Below the pieces are notes generated by a model. That model worked only from the letters and a program-made list of their open reading frames with translations, did no database searches and was not told the DNA's origin. DNA of 64,000 nt from Planctomycetota bacterium (GTDB lineage: Bacteria > Planctomycetota > UBA8742 > UBA2392), in contig JAMQHL010000037.1 in NCBI GenBank assembly GCA_025993795.1, positions 1 through 64,000 of the forward strand, given 5' to 3'. This document shows, piece by piece, positions 55,253 to 61,999 of this stretch. Numbering within the stretch: the stretch's first letter is position 1; each line of letters opens with the position of its first letter. The position numbers and the translations under genes were made by a program.

Positions 55253-55690
55253 CTATTCCTGGTCTTTACCCTTGAAGCCGTCGGCCATGGCGCCGAACAG
55301 CGTTGCCATCATGGAGATCCGCCATTCGCCGTCTTCCTGGATGCACACGTAGTTGGCGGTCTCGGACTTGCCGTCTTTCACGTAGGTTACGGGCACCTTG
55401 GCCTTGTCGCCGGTGATCGTGGCACTGCCGACGGACCAGCTTCCTTTGCTCTCTTCGTTCTTGGTGACCGTGACAGAGCCGCCTTCGTCTTCCTTTCCGT
55501 CTTTCTTTTCTTCGCGCTCGGCTTTGATCATGCAACGTTTCGCGGCTTCTTTGTCGTCGGCATCCATCGCCTTGTGGAAGGCTTTGACGGTGCCTTCAGG
55601 TGTGGAGTAGTCAGGGCCACAGCCAGAGACGGCAAACGCGCCGACACACAGCGCAGACAGCAGCAGGATTGCGTTCAGGCGGGTCTTCAT
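55253..55690 (-). CDS. Lipoprotein, related to the neighbouring 162-aa lipoprotein
   Basis: 145 aa; GAGG six bases before ATG 55690; lipobox V-S-G-C. The mature part has S-T-P-E-G-T-V-K-A-F-H-K-A-M, C-M-I-K-A-E-R-E, a charged linker, and a final beta segment W-R-I-S-M. This is the NTF2-like DUF4878 pattern, small lipid-anchored domains with unknown ligands. A like protein lies just upstream (55795-56283), sharing K-A-E-R-E and W-R-I-S-M at matching places. Confidence 0.75.
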   Translation of the reverse strand: MKTRLNAILLLSALCVGAFAVSGCGPDYSTPEGTVKAFHKAMDADDKEAAKRCMIKAEREEKKDGKEDEGGSVTVTKNEESKGSWSVGSATITGDKAKVPVTYVKDGKSETANYVCIQEDGEWRISMMATLFGAMADGFKGKDQE

Positions 55691-55794
55691 GGGATGCCTC
55701 GATTTCGAAGAGGTTCAATTGAATAAAGGGAGGGAGTGTGATTTCAGTTGCGCCAGGCCGCAACCACAAATCCGGCAATCTTCGGCGCGACGCA

Positions 55795-56283
55795 TCAATC
55801 GCCTGCGTTGGCTTTACGGCGTTCCCGCAGCACGGCCACGTACCTTGAAAACGTTTTGTCCATGCTGATGCGCCAGGTGGTCTCTTCCTTCAATAGAACC
55901 ACCGGCATCGTGTCGCTTTTGCTGGGCGGCTTCACAACGACACTGACGTTGACGATGATTTCGTCACCTTCGGATTTCACATCCCCTATGGTGTATGACT
56001 CCATGTCGCCATCCTTGTTGAAGCCGTAGCTTGCGCCCGACGGCATCACCTTCTCTCGTTCTGCCTTGATCAGCAGGGCTTTGCACTTGTCCTGGTCCTG
56101 GGCCAGGCTCGCCTGCATCAGCTCTTCGACGACGCCCCTGGCGATCACTTCGTCCGCACTCAGGGAAGAACCGGTGTTCTCCGAGTCGGCATTGCCCGCT
56201 GTGTTCAGGGCGGGGGCTGAGTTTCCCGGTCCACACGAAGTCAGCACGACGCACATGAGCATCAGCAGGCAGAAGAGTTTCAT
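55795..56283 (-). CDS. Lipoprotein, paralogue of the 145-aa lipoprotein downstream
   Basis: 162 aa from ATG 56283 (GGAG six bases upstream). Leader C-V-V-L-T-S-C as lipobox. Ser/Asn-rich linker, then V-V-E-E-L-M-Q-A-S-L-A-Q-D-Q-D-K-C-K-A-L-L-I-K-A-E-R-E and a terminal T-W-R-I-S-M-D-K. The shared order with the next gene (helix, Cys, K-A-E-R-E, beta, W-R-I-S-M) suggests tandem duplication. No known function. Confidence 0.75.
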   Translation of the reverse strand: MKLFCLLMLMCVVLTSCGPGNSAPALNTAGNADSENTGSSLSADEVIARGVVEELMQASLAQDQDKCKALLIKAEREKVMPSGASYGFNKDGDMESYTIGDVKSEGDEIIVNVSVVVKPPSKSDTMPVVLLKEETTWRISMDKTFSRYVAVLRERRKANAGD

Positions 56284-56351
56284 GCTGGTCTCCATAACAA
56301 AGATGGGCGCATCGTCGCGCCCGTGGTTGTGCGGTCAGTCGTCCGATCCAA

Positions 56352-57243: not shown

Positions 57244-59709
57244 ATGGGCAAATGGACGCTAGGGTGTTTGTTGTCGGCGGCACTGTTTTTGTTGGCGGGG
57301 GTCCGAACCACGGCACAGGACACATCCGCCGATCAGACGGGCTATCTTCCCGGCCAGTTCTTTACCCCGGCGGACTATGAGCACATGCAAGCGGCGCTGG
57401 CATATCTTGACCTGACGCCTGCCGACCTTTCCTACGAGAAAAAGCACATCGACCACAAGTTCCGGCTCAGCGCCGCCAACCGCGGCCTCGACCAGCCGCT
57501 GTCGGTGCCGGGCATTACAGAAACAGCTGCACGCGAGCTGGGCACCGCTGCGCAGGCGAGACAACGGCTGGCCCATGCCGAAACGTTGCTGGACCAGACG
57601 CCCCGCATCACGGACGCCGAGCTTGCCCTGGATGACGCGGACTACCGCCGCCACCACGACCAGACCGCCGAGCTTGAGACAAAAGAGGGCCGCGAAGCCG
57701 CAATCGCGGCCCGCCACGAACTGCGCTGCCAGGAAGTAATCGGCGGCAACCCGCGCGAAATCCACGACCTGGGCGGGTTGCAGAGCTTTGTTGACGGCAC
57801 CCAGCGCTTTCTGTCACGCGAGAACAAGCGCAGCATCCGCCGCGAGTTCGAGGCCATCGTCGAGCGGCTTTACCATCCCGTACGCGCACTGAGCCGGGTA
57901 CCCAGTGGCCTCAGCGCCGACGAAATCAACGCGCTGCGTCGCCTGCCCATGGAAACGGTAGATGCCGAAGTCAGTGTACCGGGCAGCGGCGCCCCCAGCG
58001 GCGACTTGCTGCTGGCTGGGCAGAAGGTACCGATCACGGCCTGCCTGGCGGCCGCATACTGGCTCAAGGACGTGCTGTCGCAACTGGTGCCTGCACTGCA
58101 AGAGATGCTGCGCAAGGGCGAACCGGATGAGTACCTTGGCTTCCAGAGCGAGGTGGACGGCGTCACCGGCGGCATCATCGGCGCATGGCAGGGCCCTTGG
58201 GGCAAGATCGTGCTCGGCGGCACCGGCCCCAACACGTACGAAGGCGACGACTTCGTTGCCATTATCGACCTCGGCGGCCATGACACCTACCGTGGCCGAA
58301 TTGCAGCGGGCATCGGCTCACCGGGGCATGCGCCGGTCAGTTGCGTGCTGGACCTTTCGGGCGACGACACCTACAGCGGCGACGACTTTACCCAGGGCTT
58401 CGGCTTTCTCGGCGTCGGCATCCTGTGGGACCTGGGCGGCGGAAGCGACGATTACCGTTGCGGGTTCTGCGGACAGGGTTGCGGCATGGCCGGCTACGGC
58501 GAGCTGTACGATGACGGTGGCGACGACAGCTACCGCTCCGACTCGGGCTCGCAGGGGGCCGCCAGCTTTGGCATGGGCCACTTGATCGACAAGGGCGGCA
58601 ATGACACTTATCGCGGCGCGCGCTTCGTGCAGGGGTTTGCCCAGGTGATGGGGCTGGGCGTGCTCAGTGACGCTGACGGCAACGACCTGTATTTTGCCGG
58701 TGGCAAGTATCTGCATCTGCCGCTCTGGAACGACCGGTACCAGTCCCTGAGCCAGGGGTTTGCCATCGGCAACCGCTACCTTGGCACCGGCGGCGGAATT
58801 GCCTTGCTGCTCGACGAAGGCAACGGCAACGACGTCTACCATGCCGACATCTACGGCCAGGGCAGCAGCTACTGGTACAGCCTTGGCATGCTTGTCGATT
58901 GCGGCGGCAACGATACCTACACCGTCGGCCAGTACGGGCAGGGCGCGGGCATTCACCTCAGTACCGGCATCCTGGTGGACCTGTCAGGCAACGACACGTA
59001 CGCCATGGGTGTCGGGCTTGGGCAGGGCGCCGCCCACGACTGGGCCGTGGGGTGGCTGATCGACCGCGCCGGCAACGACATGTACCAGGGCAACGGGCAG
59101 GGCATGGGCCTGAACTTCTCATTTGCCGTGCTGCTGGACTGCGCCGGCGACGACAGCCACAGCACCAACAACGACGGCAGCATCGGCAAGGGCAGCAACA
59201 ACGACATCAGCCTGCTGCTGGACCTTGGCGGCTACGACGTATACGGCCCCAAGGAAATCAAGGACAGCACCCTGACACGCCGCGCCCGTCGAGCACTGGT
59301 GTATGACGTGCCGGAGGGCTGGTTTCCGGGCATTGACACGTCAACGTTGCCGACACCCCAGGACCCCGCGCCGGCCAAGACAAAGGTCCAGCACATCCTG
59401 ATCGCCTGGGACGGCAGCGGCGTGAACACCCAGAAGACGCCCCGCACCAAAGAGCAAGCCAAGGCGCTGACGCTCGAAGTGCTCAAGAAGGCGCGCAGCA
59501 AGAACGCCGACTGGAAGGCGCTGCAGGTCGCATACAACGAAGATTGCGCCAAGGGCCCGGACTACGACAACACCCACAACACGTATGATGCCGCACCGGG
59601 TGCGAGGCTGGTAAAGCCGTTTCTCGACCTTTCGCTGAAGCTGGGTGTCGGCCAGATCGACTGGTGCGAAAGCAAGTACGGCTACCACATCATCAAGCGC
59701 GTTGAGTAG
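57244..59709 (+). CDS. Exported GGNDTY-repeat protein with a C-terminal parvulin-like domain
   Basis: 821 aa. Signal peptide (1-24, L-F-L-L-A-G-V-R-T-T-A-Q). Helical, charged region 30-320. From 326 to 669 there are about 13 units of roughly 26-30 residues built on (L/D)-x-x-G-(G/N)-D-x-Y-x-G, e.g. at 343, 371, 424, 450, 553, 580 and 608, each followed by Q-G-x-G-type turns and a hydrophobic strand (G-x-L-x-D). Residues 713-819 match a PpiC/parvulin domain: V-Q-H-I-L-I-A-W, then K-E-Q-A-K-A-L, ending Y-G-Y-H-I-I-K-R-V-E. AGGAAGG lies nine bases before ATG 57244. Likely a secreted repeat scaffold; the PPIase link is inferred. Confidence 0.85.
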   Translation: MGKWTLGCLLSAALFLLAGVRTTAQDTSADQTGYLPGQFFTPADYEHMQAALAYLDLTPADLSYEKKHIDHKFRLSAANRGLDQPLSVPGITETAARELGTAAQARQRLAHAETLLDQTPRITDAELALDDADYRRHHDQTAELETKEGREAAIAARHELRCQEVIGGNPREIHDLGGLQSFVDGTQRFLSRENKRSIRREFEAIVERLYHPVRALSRVPSGLSADEINALRRLPMETVDAEVSVPGSGAPSGDLLLAGQKVPITACLAAAYWLKDVLSQLVPALQEMLRKGEPDEYLGFQSEVDGVTGGIIGAWQGPWGKIVLGGTGPNTYEGDDFVAIIDLGGHDTYRGRIAAGIGSPGHAPVSCVLDLSGDDTYSGDDFTQGFGFLGVGILWDLGGGSDDYRCGFCGQGCGMAGYGELYDDGGDDSYRSDSGSQGAASFGMGHLIDKGGNDTYRGARFVQGFAQVMGLGVLSDADGNDLYFAGGKYLHLPLWNDRYQSLSQGFAIGNRYLGTGGGIALLLDEGNGNDVYHADIYGQGSSYWYSLGMLVDCGGNDTYTVGQYGQGAGIHLSTGILVDLSGNDTYAMGVGLGQGAAHDWAVGWLIDRAGNDMYQGNGQGMGLNFSFAVLLDCAGDDSHSTNNDGSIGKGSNNDISLLLDLGGYDVYGPKEIKDSTLTRRARRALVYDVPEGWFPGIDTSTLPTPQDPAPAKTKVQHILIAWDGSGVNTQKTPRTKEQAKALTLEVLKKARSKNADWKALQVAYNEDCAKGPDYDNTHNTYDAAPGARLVKPFLDLSLKLGVGQIDWCESKYGYHIIKRVE

Positions 59710-59779: not shown

Positions 59780-61999
59780 ATGGGATCGACCCGTGAATAC
59801 ACTTCGGCGCGCTGGCACTCGCGCGCCGGCTTTCTCGCCACGACGCTGCTGGCGTTGCTGGTCATGGGCGCGCCGTTCATGGTGACGCGCGGGTTGCTGC
59901 AACACGGCGCCCTGTTTCTGCCTGCGGTGCTGGGACTGATGCTGCTGTTCGGCGGGCCGCTGGTGCGCATCGCCCTTGCCACCGGCCGCCTTTCTCATCG
60001 CCTAACAGGGCGCGAGGCACTGCACGGAGTGCAGGTGCTGGTGCGGGTTGTGCTTGCGATTGCGCTGCTGGTCGTGGCCCAGCGTGCCATCGGGTGGATC
60101 TTTGCCGAGACCCTGTTTGAAGTGCCCAGCGGGGCACTCGAGTTTCGCGCCCGTGAGCTGACGACGGCTTCCACCGCGTGGCACAGCGAGCCATCGCAGG
60201 CTCTTTGGTGCGGCCTGGGCAGCGCGCTTCTTCTCGGCCTTGTGTTCTGGGCGTTAGCTCGGCGGCGACGGCTCGCGGGCTTGAGCTGGATTGCCGGCTG
60301 GGTGCTCACCACGATCGTTGCGCTGTTGGCGCTGGGCCTGGTGGTCGGTTACAGCCTGCCGGGGGCCGGCGCCCTTGCCGCGCTGGCTGCCCCGCTTAAG
60401 TGGAAGGCGGTGTGGACATTCGGATTCTGGGGCGATGCCGCGACGATTGCCCTGCTCGGGCTTGGTGCCCAGACGGCCGTGATCACCGCTGCGGGCCGCG
60501 GCCTGCCCAAGCGTGCGGCAATCGGGCGGGAGGCACGCATCCTTGTTGCCGGCATCAGCTTTCTCACGGTGCTGGGGGGTCTTGTTGGCTTGCTGCTGCT
60601 TTGCGCCATCTGCGTACGGCAGGGCATTGTTCCGGGCATTGAACATGCCGCGCCCGGCGTTCTGCTGCTTGAGCTTGTGCCCGCGCTGGGGCGCCTGCTG
60701 TTCTTTAGCTGGCCTGAGCACCTGCAACCCGGCGACCGCCAGATTACGCTCGCGTGGTGCTTCCTGCTGGCCGTCACCTGCTGCCTTGGCGCTGCCGCGC
60801 TGCTTGCGTCCCGGCGTTTTCTGCCGCAACCGGCGGGCTCACGCGCGGCGTGGTTCGGGTATGCCGCCGCGCTTGTGGCCGCAGGCGCCGTCGCGGCGGG
60901 CTGGGCAGCCAGCACCCAGGACGCGTGGCTATCTTTGGCGACCGTGATGCCGGCACTGCTGGGCGTGATGCACCTGACCCTGGCTCGCCGCGCGGGGGCT
61001 GACCTGCGGGTGGTCAGCAATGCCTTTCACTCTTCGCGCGCGTGGCTTGAAAAGCTGAACATCACCTTCACGTTCCAGATTGCCCGGCCGCTGCTGCTGC
61101 TGGTGGTGCTGGCGGTTGCGTTGTCGCGCCGCGAGTACGGCCTTGTGCTGGCAGGGTTTGCGGTCGCGTTTGCCGTGATGTGGGTCGGCTCATGGCGGCC
61201 CCGCTCGCGCAGCCGCGATACCGGCCTGTTGCGCGCTGTCGGCACCGCCGCGTTGCTGATTGCCTGCAGCGCGCCGGCGCTGGCCCAGAAGTCGCAGGCA
61301 GACGAAGCGTGGTCCACTGCGATGGAAACGCCCGTCGGAAATGAACGCGCCGTGGCACTGGCGCGGTTTGAACAAGGCTGGATGCGCGGCGAGAACGTGG
61401 ACCTGGCGGCGCTGCGGCTTGCCGCCGATGAGGCGGTGGCACGCGTGCGCTCTGCAGAACTGCCAGCCCATGAACGTGATGCGGCATTGCGCAGGGCGCG
61501 GGCCGCCATGATCTGCCTGCTGATTGCCGACCCCACCGGCGACGACAGCCTGCGCCTTGAGCGGGCAATGCTTGTCGAAGACGGCCTGATGCCGTTTTCG
61601 CGACTGGAAGAGGCCATCGCCGATCACCAGGCCGGGAACACGACCCCGCTGCTTGAGTTGTTGACGCAGGTTCAGCAACGCCTGGGCGCCCACGCTCCGC
61701 AAGATGCTTTCTTGCCAGGCGCCTCGAAGGGCACCAGCGCCTTGCGCGATGCGCTGCAAGGCAACGCGGACCTGCCGCAGTTGCTTACCGCCACGGTCAA
61801 GGATATGCGTGAAACCTATGGCGCCGGCGGTCGCGAGGCCCAGCGCCTGCGGGCGCACCTTCTGCAACGGGCTACGGCCGGGAGCACACTGCTGAAGCCT
61901 GACGCGGGTCCCGGCGTTGTGTACGTTGTCAGCATGTTGCTGGCGGCGTTTGCGCTGGCATGGTCGTTGATGCTGGGTATCGGCAGGCCCCGGAAGTGA
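59780..61999 (+). CDS. Large polytopic membrane protein of unknown function
   Basis: 739 aa with about 11 predicted TMs in residues 15-490, then a soluble region of about 200 residues and a last TM near 715-735. The stretch G-F-W-G-D-A-A-T-I-A-L-L-G-L-G-A-Q and following T-A-A-G-R-G loosely recalls transmembrane 6 of neurotransmitter:sodium symporters, but no full family match can be made by eye. A signal-peptide-like segment (A-L-L-I-A-C-S-A-P-A-L-A-Q) lies at about 490-503, suggesting fusion of a transport unit and an exported helical domain. It is 70 bp behind the GGNDTY gene. Confidence 0.65.
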   Translation: MGSTREYTSARWHSRAGFLATTLLALLVMGAPFMVTRGLLQHGALFLPAVLGLMLLFGGPLVRIALATGRLSHRLTGREALHGVQVLVRVVLAIALLVVAQRAIGWIFAETLFEVPSGALEFRARELTTASTAWHSEPSQALWCGLGSALLLGLVFWALARRRRLAGLSWIAGWVLTTIVALLALGLVVGYSLPGAGALAALAAPLKWKAVWTFGFWGDAATIALLGLGAQTAVITAAGRGLPKRAAIGREARILVAGISFLTVLGGLVGLLLLCAICVRQGIVPGIEHAAPGVLLLELVPALGRLLFFSWPEHLQPGDRQITLAWCFLLAVTCCLGAAALLASRRFLPQPAGSRAAWFGYAAALVAAGAVAAGWAASTQDAWLSLATVMPALLGVMHLTLARRAGADLRVVSNAFHSSRAWLEKLNITFTFQIARPLLLLVVLAVALSRREYGLVLAGFAVAFAVMWVGSWRPRSRSRDTGLLRAVGTAALLIACSAPALAQKSQADEAWSTAMETPVGNERAVALARFEQGWMRGENVDLAALRLAADEAVARVRSAELPAHERDAALRRARAAMICLLIADPTGDDSLRLERAMLVEDGLMPFSRLEEAIADHQAGNTTPLLELLTQVQQRLGAHAPQDAFLPGASKGTSALRDALQGNADLPQLLTATVKDMRETYGAGGREAQRLRAHLLQRATAGSTLLKPDAGPGVVYVVSMLLAAFALAWSLMLGIGRPRK

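Follow-up and report, generated by a model that had tools for sequence, protein, structure and literature searches.

The open reading frame at positions 57244-59709 of the window (the whole stretch of 64,000 nucleotides of a Planctomycetota bacterium that was analyzed here) encodes a solenoid with a candidate Arg-Tyr-His-Asp site, and this solenoid, not its fusion to a parvulin, is the unit of interest. In our best explanation, for which our confidence falls a little short of even, the protein would be an exported, Asp-laddered and probably Ca2+-stabilized solenoid, the catalytic or ligand-binding Arg-Tyr-His-Asp site would be its core function, and the parvulin would be an accessory. A catalytic or ligand site is favored because (i) the coils are fixed, (ii) the residues concerned are singular and nearly invariant, (iii) the solenoid has the highest conservation in the protein, (iv) the modules around it are swapped, and (v) export signals are predicted. 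The features of the locus are as follows.

57244..59709, plus strand: whole gene, 821-aa exported-looking solenoid-parvulin protein (open frame; orthologues in 15/15 other family genomes searched)
57244..57318, plus strand: probable N-terminal export signal, residues 1-25, MGKWTLGCLLSAALFLLAGVRTTAQ (basic start and hydrophobic stretch)
57319..58188, plus strand: rapidly evolving N-terminal region, residues 26-315, without a known domain (identity, Pfam)
58189..59259, plus strand: 12-coil beta-solenoid domain, residues 316-672 (365-position profile, family identity, partial AlphaFold2 model)
58693..58752, plus strand: insertion of ~20 residues in coil 7, residues ~484-503, ahead of R511 (49-residue spacing)
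58774..58776, plus strand: R511, candidate site residue, coil 7 (57/58 homologues)
58870..58872, plus strand: Y543, candidate site residue, coil 8 (54/58 homologues)
58954..58956, plus strand: H571, candidate site residue, coil 9 (57/58 homologues)
59038..59040, plus strand: D599, candidate site residue, coil 10 (58/58 homologues)
59260..59370, plus strand: linker, residues 673-709, with LVYDVPEGWFPGIDTSTLPT (mean identity within the family, 66%)
59371..59706, plus strand: predicted parvulin (PpiC-type) prolyl isomerase domain, residues 710-821 (PF13616; H717, F793, and H815 invariant)
59780..61999, plus strand: neighboring multipass membrane protein, 739 aa, ~15 hydrophobic segments (partly conserved neighbor)

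The reading frame is coding, since full-length orthologues without internal stops were found in all 15 other searched genomes of the window's taxonomic family (48-94% identity). The segment MGKWTLGCLLSAALFLLAGVRTTAQ is the sole strongly hydrophobic stretch in the 821-aa protein, and a simple heuristic found an N-terminal hydrophobic stretch in 28 of 35 distant homologues as well; the protein is probably exported by way of this export-signal-like segment. Pfam matched only the C-terminal parvulin, leaving residues 26-315 without a match, and NCBIfam returned only weak isomerase matches. By far the best-conserved part of the protein is the solenoid: mean pairwise identity within the family is 79% for this domain, followed by the linker (66%), the parvulin (57%), and residues 1-315 (33%).

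The motif G-x-D-x-[YH] occurs in 12 copies between residues 345 and 663, spaced in order by 28, 27, 26, 26, 27, 49, 27, 27, 28, 25, and 28 residues, whereas 10,000 shuffles of the same stretch gave a mean of 0.72 copies and a maximum of 6. The preliminary description had counted about 13 units of 26 to 30 residues; the repeats are real, and an exact count of the motif gives 12 copies, spaced by 25 to 28 residues apart from the one gap of 49. The insertion zone of coil 7 (residues 482-518) has, with 84%, the highest mean identity of any segment in the family. A solenoid profile of 365 positions, built from a 50-row alignment and searched against a phylum-wide sample of 392 Planctomycetota genomes from 267 genera, had matches in 138 of the genomes and 97 of the genera (E 1e-10). 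Among the matches listed, nearly all cover the profile from about position 1 to position 363. These full-length matches and the position-specific conservation across the phylum indicate that the repeats are a single homologous domain of ~365 aa with 12 fixed coils in the same order, and not an array of variable length.

The domain had no convincing match in Pfam or NCBIfam (50 members were scanned against Pfam), the trimmed profile had no match to PDB sequences at a meaningful E-value, and the searches used retrieved no solenoid relative from plasmids, phages, or viral contigs. The untrimmed profile matched the PDZ domains of DegP/DegQ, but these matches were due to PDZ domains at the N termini of relatives rather than to the repeats and disappeared after trimming. 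No paper describing the domain turned up in the literature searches. The earlier view that this architecture is not a described system is thus borne out within the databases and literature covered. Several contigs of one Planctomycetota genome (G051) carry an expanded solenoid family, with at least seven domain matches in proteins that contain PDZ, HEAT, or no recognized partner domain. The window's own genome encodes a second solenoid protein without a parvulin (L047:6604-8967, minus strand, contig 36 of G000), which has a subthreshold N-terminal PDZ match and shares its group in the tree with relatives encoded by three further genomes of the family.

A fold was predicted with AlphaFold2 for five of the 12 coils (coils 8-12, residues 519-669; pLDDT 73, pTM 0.74), the input consisting of four rows from two near-identical proteins, the window's and a close orthologue, with two internal segments each. 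For the whole solenoid with two rows, the pLDDT was 37.5, which is no usable model. The five-coil model places two strands in each coil of 25 to 28 residues. The first runs from about the Tyr of DxY to near the conserved Gln and is followed by a QGxG turn; the second begins after this turn, ends in LxD, and leads into the D-x-x-G-[ND]-D turn. The short model therefore supports, as a prediction, a beta-solenoid with long strands, two per coil, and together with the signal-like segment it agrees with the secreted solenoid proposed initially. On one edge, the turn LxDxxG[ND]DxY recurs in every coil and creates ladders of Asp and Tyr; by analogy to the RTX turns, the Asp-ladder turns probably bind Ca2+ and would thereby stabilize the solenoid. 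The QGxG turn lies on the opposite edge in the model. In a Foldseek search of the PDB with the five-coil model, no hit reached an E of ≤0.001 (best hit: E 0.018, probability 0.06, TM 0.14).

Once the repeat motif is set aside, nearly invariant positions are few among the distant homologues. R511, Y543, H571, and D599 are nonrepeated residues, one in each of four successive coils, and all are located just past the QGxG turn. Among 58 distinct homologues of full length, they are conserved in 57, 54, 57, and 58 sequences, respectively; Y564 is kept in 53. Y543, H571, and D599 follow one another at intervals of exactly one coil (28 residues in both cases), and in the five-coil model these residues occupy equivalent strand starts (Y543 immediately before strand 26-34, H571 in strand 52-61, and D599 in strand 80-89). 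As read from the sequence, the turn-to-strand segment is one residue longer in coils 8-11 than in coils 3-6. R511 belongs to the coil preceding that of Y543, downstream of the conserved insertion, which makes its register with the other three residues less secure. The four residues should stack into one site, which is probably an active or ligand site. The preliminary description had overlooked these unique residues, which are the strongest functional clue.

A purely structural role was also considered, namely, that of an exoprotein or a surface-layer-like component that binds Ca2+ and lacks any specific site. The Asp and Tyr ladders in all coils and the predicted export would suit it. A structural array would, however, vary in copy number, whereas here the coil number is fixed, and it would account neither for four position-specific, nearly invariant residues on consecutive coils nor for a domain so much more conserved than the remaining protein; we regard this role as improbable.

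With respect to what the site does, we infer that catalysis is the preferred reading, with specific binding a close second. The case for catalysis is one from conservation, since no match to an enzyme family or a solved fold was found, and the four residues might just as well coordinate a metal, hold a ligand, or have a structural role. As a guess, the set would be suited to acid-base chemistry, for example, that of a lyase or an epimerase. The strong conservation would suit a conserved ligand just as well, and a catalytic family match is absent; both points are compatible with a noncatalytic binder, in which a Ca2+-stiffened scaffold would present the R/Y/H/D surface to a conserved envelope glycan, a piece of peptidoglycan, or a protein, while the attached modules bring partners. 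The modules found in relatives (PDZ, HEAT, and parvulin) are protein interaction modules and not carbohydrate-enzyme modules, which also fits binding. On the other hand, conservation of a His-Asp pair, an Arg, and a Tyr to such a degree throughout a phylum is seen more typically in active sites, and binding surfaces usually drift more. A noncatalytic binder is possible and keeps a considerable, if minority, share of our confidence.

The partner modules were assessed in the 35 distant homologues that were scanned as full proteins: 13 contain PDZ, 7 contain HEAT, and none contains a parvulin. Relatives thus swap modules around the same solenoid, the parvulin being found in the window's family only. 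The parvulin itself is complete by sequence criteria. Pfam family PF13616 (Rotamase_3) matched residues 709-819 with an E of 6.3e-10 and 40.1 bits (cutoff, 22.5), whereas PF00639 remained just below its cutoff (21.6 versus 21.7 bits). The equivalents of H59, F134, and H157 of human Pin1 are H717, F793, and H815, all invariant in the 16 orthologues, and position 768, equivalent to C113 of Pin1, is C, S, or T in 14 of 16. The domain is accordingly predicted to be a prolyl isomerase with intact key residues, and the complete C-terminal PpiC-like domain noted at the outset has passed a profile search.

The joint occurrence of repeats and PpiC domain, which the preliminary description had proposed to count, holds throughout the window's family and stops there: a query made of the solenoid end plus the parvulin found the fusion in 16 of 16 family genomes and in 0 of 122 other domain-bearing genomes. 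In the tree, the parvulin-bearing proteins form a single group (support, 100/100), and HEAT-bearing proteins are among its nearest relatives. Since they form one group, the parvulin-bearing sequences point to a single gain of the parvulin, which has been kept since then and is a later addition to the system, not part of its core. In the window's genome, a DUF4340 protein also ends in a C-terminal parvulin (L048:4476-6809, minus strand, contig 41 of G000), and similar parvulins are present in other frames of 480-880 aa in family genomes; the parvulin seems to be a recurrent module in this taxonomic family.

It had been suggested that the isomerase could fold the solenoid to which it is fused. 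The presence of both domains on one chain in 16 of 16 family genomes and the intact key residues of the parvulin are what such a self-folding exoprotein, in which the parvulin would isomerize prolines of its own solenoid, would lead one to expect. However, the solenoid contains only 6 prolines in 357 residues, of which P493 alone is invariant, and the 35 distant homologues, which have the same solenoid without a parvulin, indicate that the fold needs none in cis. The suggestion is weakened for these reasons, and we consider self-folding very improbable; it is more likely that the parvulin acts on a client or partner than on the solenoid.

The neighborhood of the gene was compared in the 16 family loci. 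The downstream membrane gene, whose conservation beside the fusion gene was in question, is nearby in 11 of them and directly adjacent (within ~300 bases) in only 7; its proximity is therefore common, and its direct adjacency is not the rule. In other loci, different genes intervene between the solenoid gene and the membrane gene, in one case Cas9. This intervening protein of 1,124 aa (L035:4679-8050, minus strand, contig 3 of G009) has Pfam matches to HNH_4, RuvC_III, and Cas9_a. Local synteny is a weak indication that the membrane gene and the solenoid gene are a functional pair. On the upstream side, 15 of the 16 loci have a divergent SDR gene. No function can be derived from the SDR, XdhC, MobA-like, and acyl-CoA dehydrogenase genes in the neighborhood, which look like ordinary conserved synteny. 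In the window, positions 55256-56295 on the minus strand contain two adjacent small look-alike genes with lipoprotein-like starts, one of which has a subthreshold DUF4878 match.

Taken together, these data are consistent with a solenoid whose Asp/Tyr ladders on one edge would hold Ca2+ and in which R511, Y543, H571, and D599, after the QGxG turn of coils 7-10, would stack into one site. The target of the site, most likely a glycan or a peptide, would be met outside the cytoplasm; PDZ, HEAT, or parvulin would be interchangeable partner modules that bind a client or help a client fold. A bolder version would see here a novel class of enzyme built on a novel, exported, Ca2+-laddered solenoid with coils of 25 to 28 residues, common in Planctomycetota, with an R-Y-H-D site stacked over four coils and a HEAT, PDZ, or parvulin client module swapped by lineage; we think it unlikely. 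The domain is present in about one-third of the sampled Planctomycetota genomes, with up to several copies each, and yet has no detectable solved relative and is without a model in the searched copies of Pfam and NCBIfam. As a fixed solenoid with a phylum-wide, nearly invariant Arg-Tyr-His-Asp set, it is an unannotated candidate, either for an enzyme or for a receptor, in the planctomycete cell envelope or outside the cell.

The protein can be compared with four groups of known proteins. (i) PDZ- and HEAT-containing Planctomycetota proteins share a homologous full-length solenoid and differ in that they have no parvulin. (ii) As in the parvulins Pin1 and PrsA, the C-terminal 110 residues match PF13616 and keep the key His and Phe; here, however, the domain sits behind a solenoid, and in the alignment the phosphate-binding residues K63, R68, and R69 of Pin1 are without obvious equivalents. 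(iii) Right-handed parallel beta-helix enzymes, such as pectate lyases and alginate C5-epimerases, carry residues of the Arg/Tyr/His/Asp type on one face, and the window's solenoid appears by analogy to do so as well. These enzymes have three strands per coil compared with two in our model, and neither a sequence match nor, with the five-coil model, a significant fold match to them was found in the PDB. (iv) RTX proteins consist of tandem nonapeptides XUXGGXGXD with a 9-residue period, each composed of a 3-residue strand and a 6-residue Ca2+-binding turn of the beta-roll (PMC6891781). The G-[ND]-D-x-(bulky) turn of the window's solenoid resembles the GGxGxD of the RTX parallel beta-roll (PF00353; serralysin C-terminal domain PF08548), and the probable Ca2+ edge and the two strands per coil of the model are further likenesses. 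PF00353 (HemolysinCabind) matched none of 50 members at an E of up to 1, and a match of PF08548 (Peptidase_M10_C) to a single member (E 0.0045) was rejected, the full protein scoring 16.8 bits against a cutoff of 20.7. The type I secretion signal of RTX proteins is C-terminal and not cleaved. In the window's protein, a signal-like segment is present at the N terminus and a parvulin at the C terminus. Its strands are longer, its coil number is fixed, it has unique R/Y/H/D residues, and the first Gly of the turn is often Asp. The initial impression that the repeats resemble RTX repeats without equaling them was thus correct: because the RTX-like turn DxxG[ND]DxY comes once per coil of 25 to 28 residues and not every 9 residues, the sequence argues for an RTX-like solenoid that is not an RTX array, and such a turn, used once per long coil, bears on the diversification of Ca2+ solenoids.
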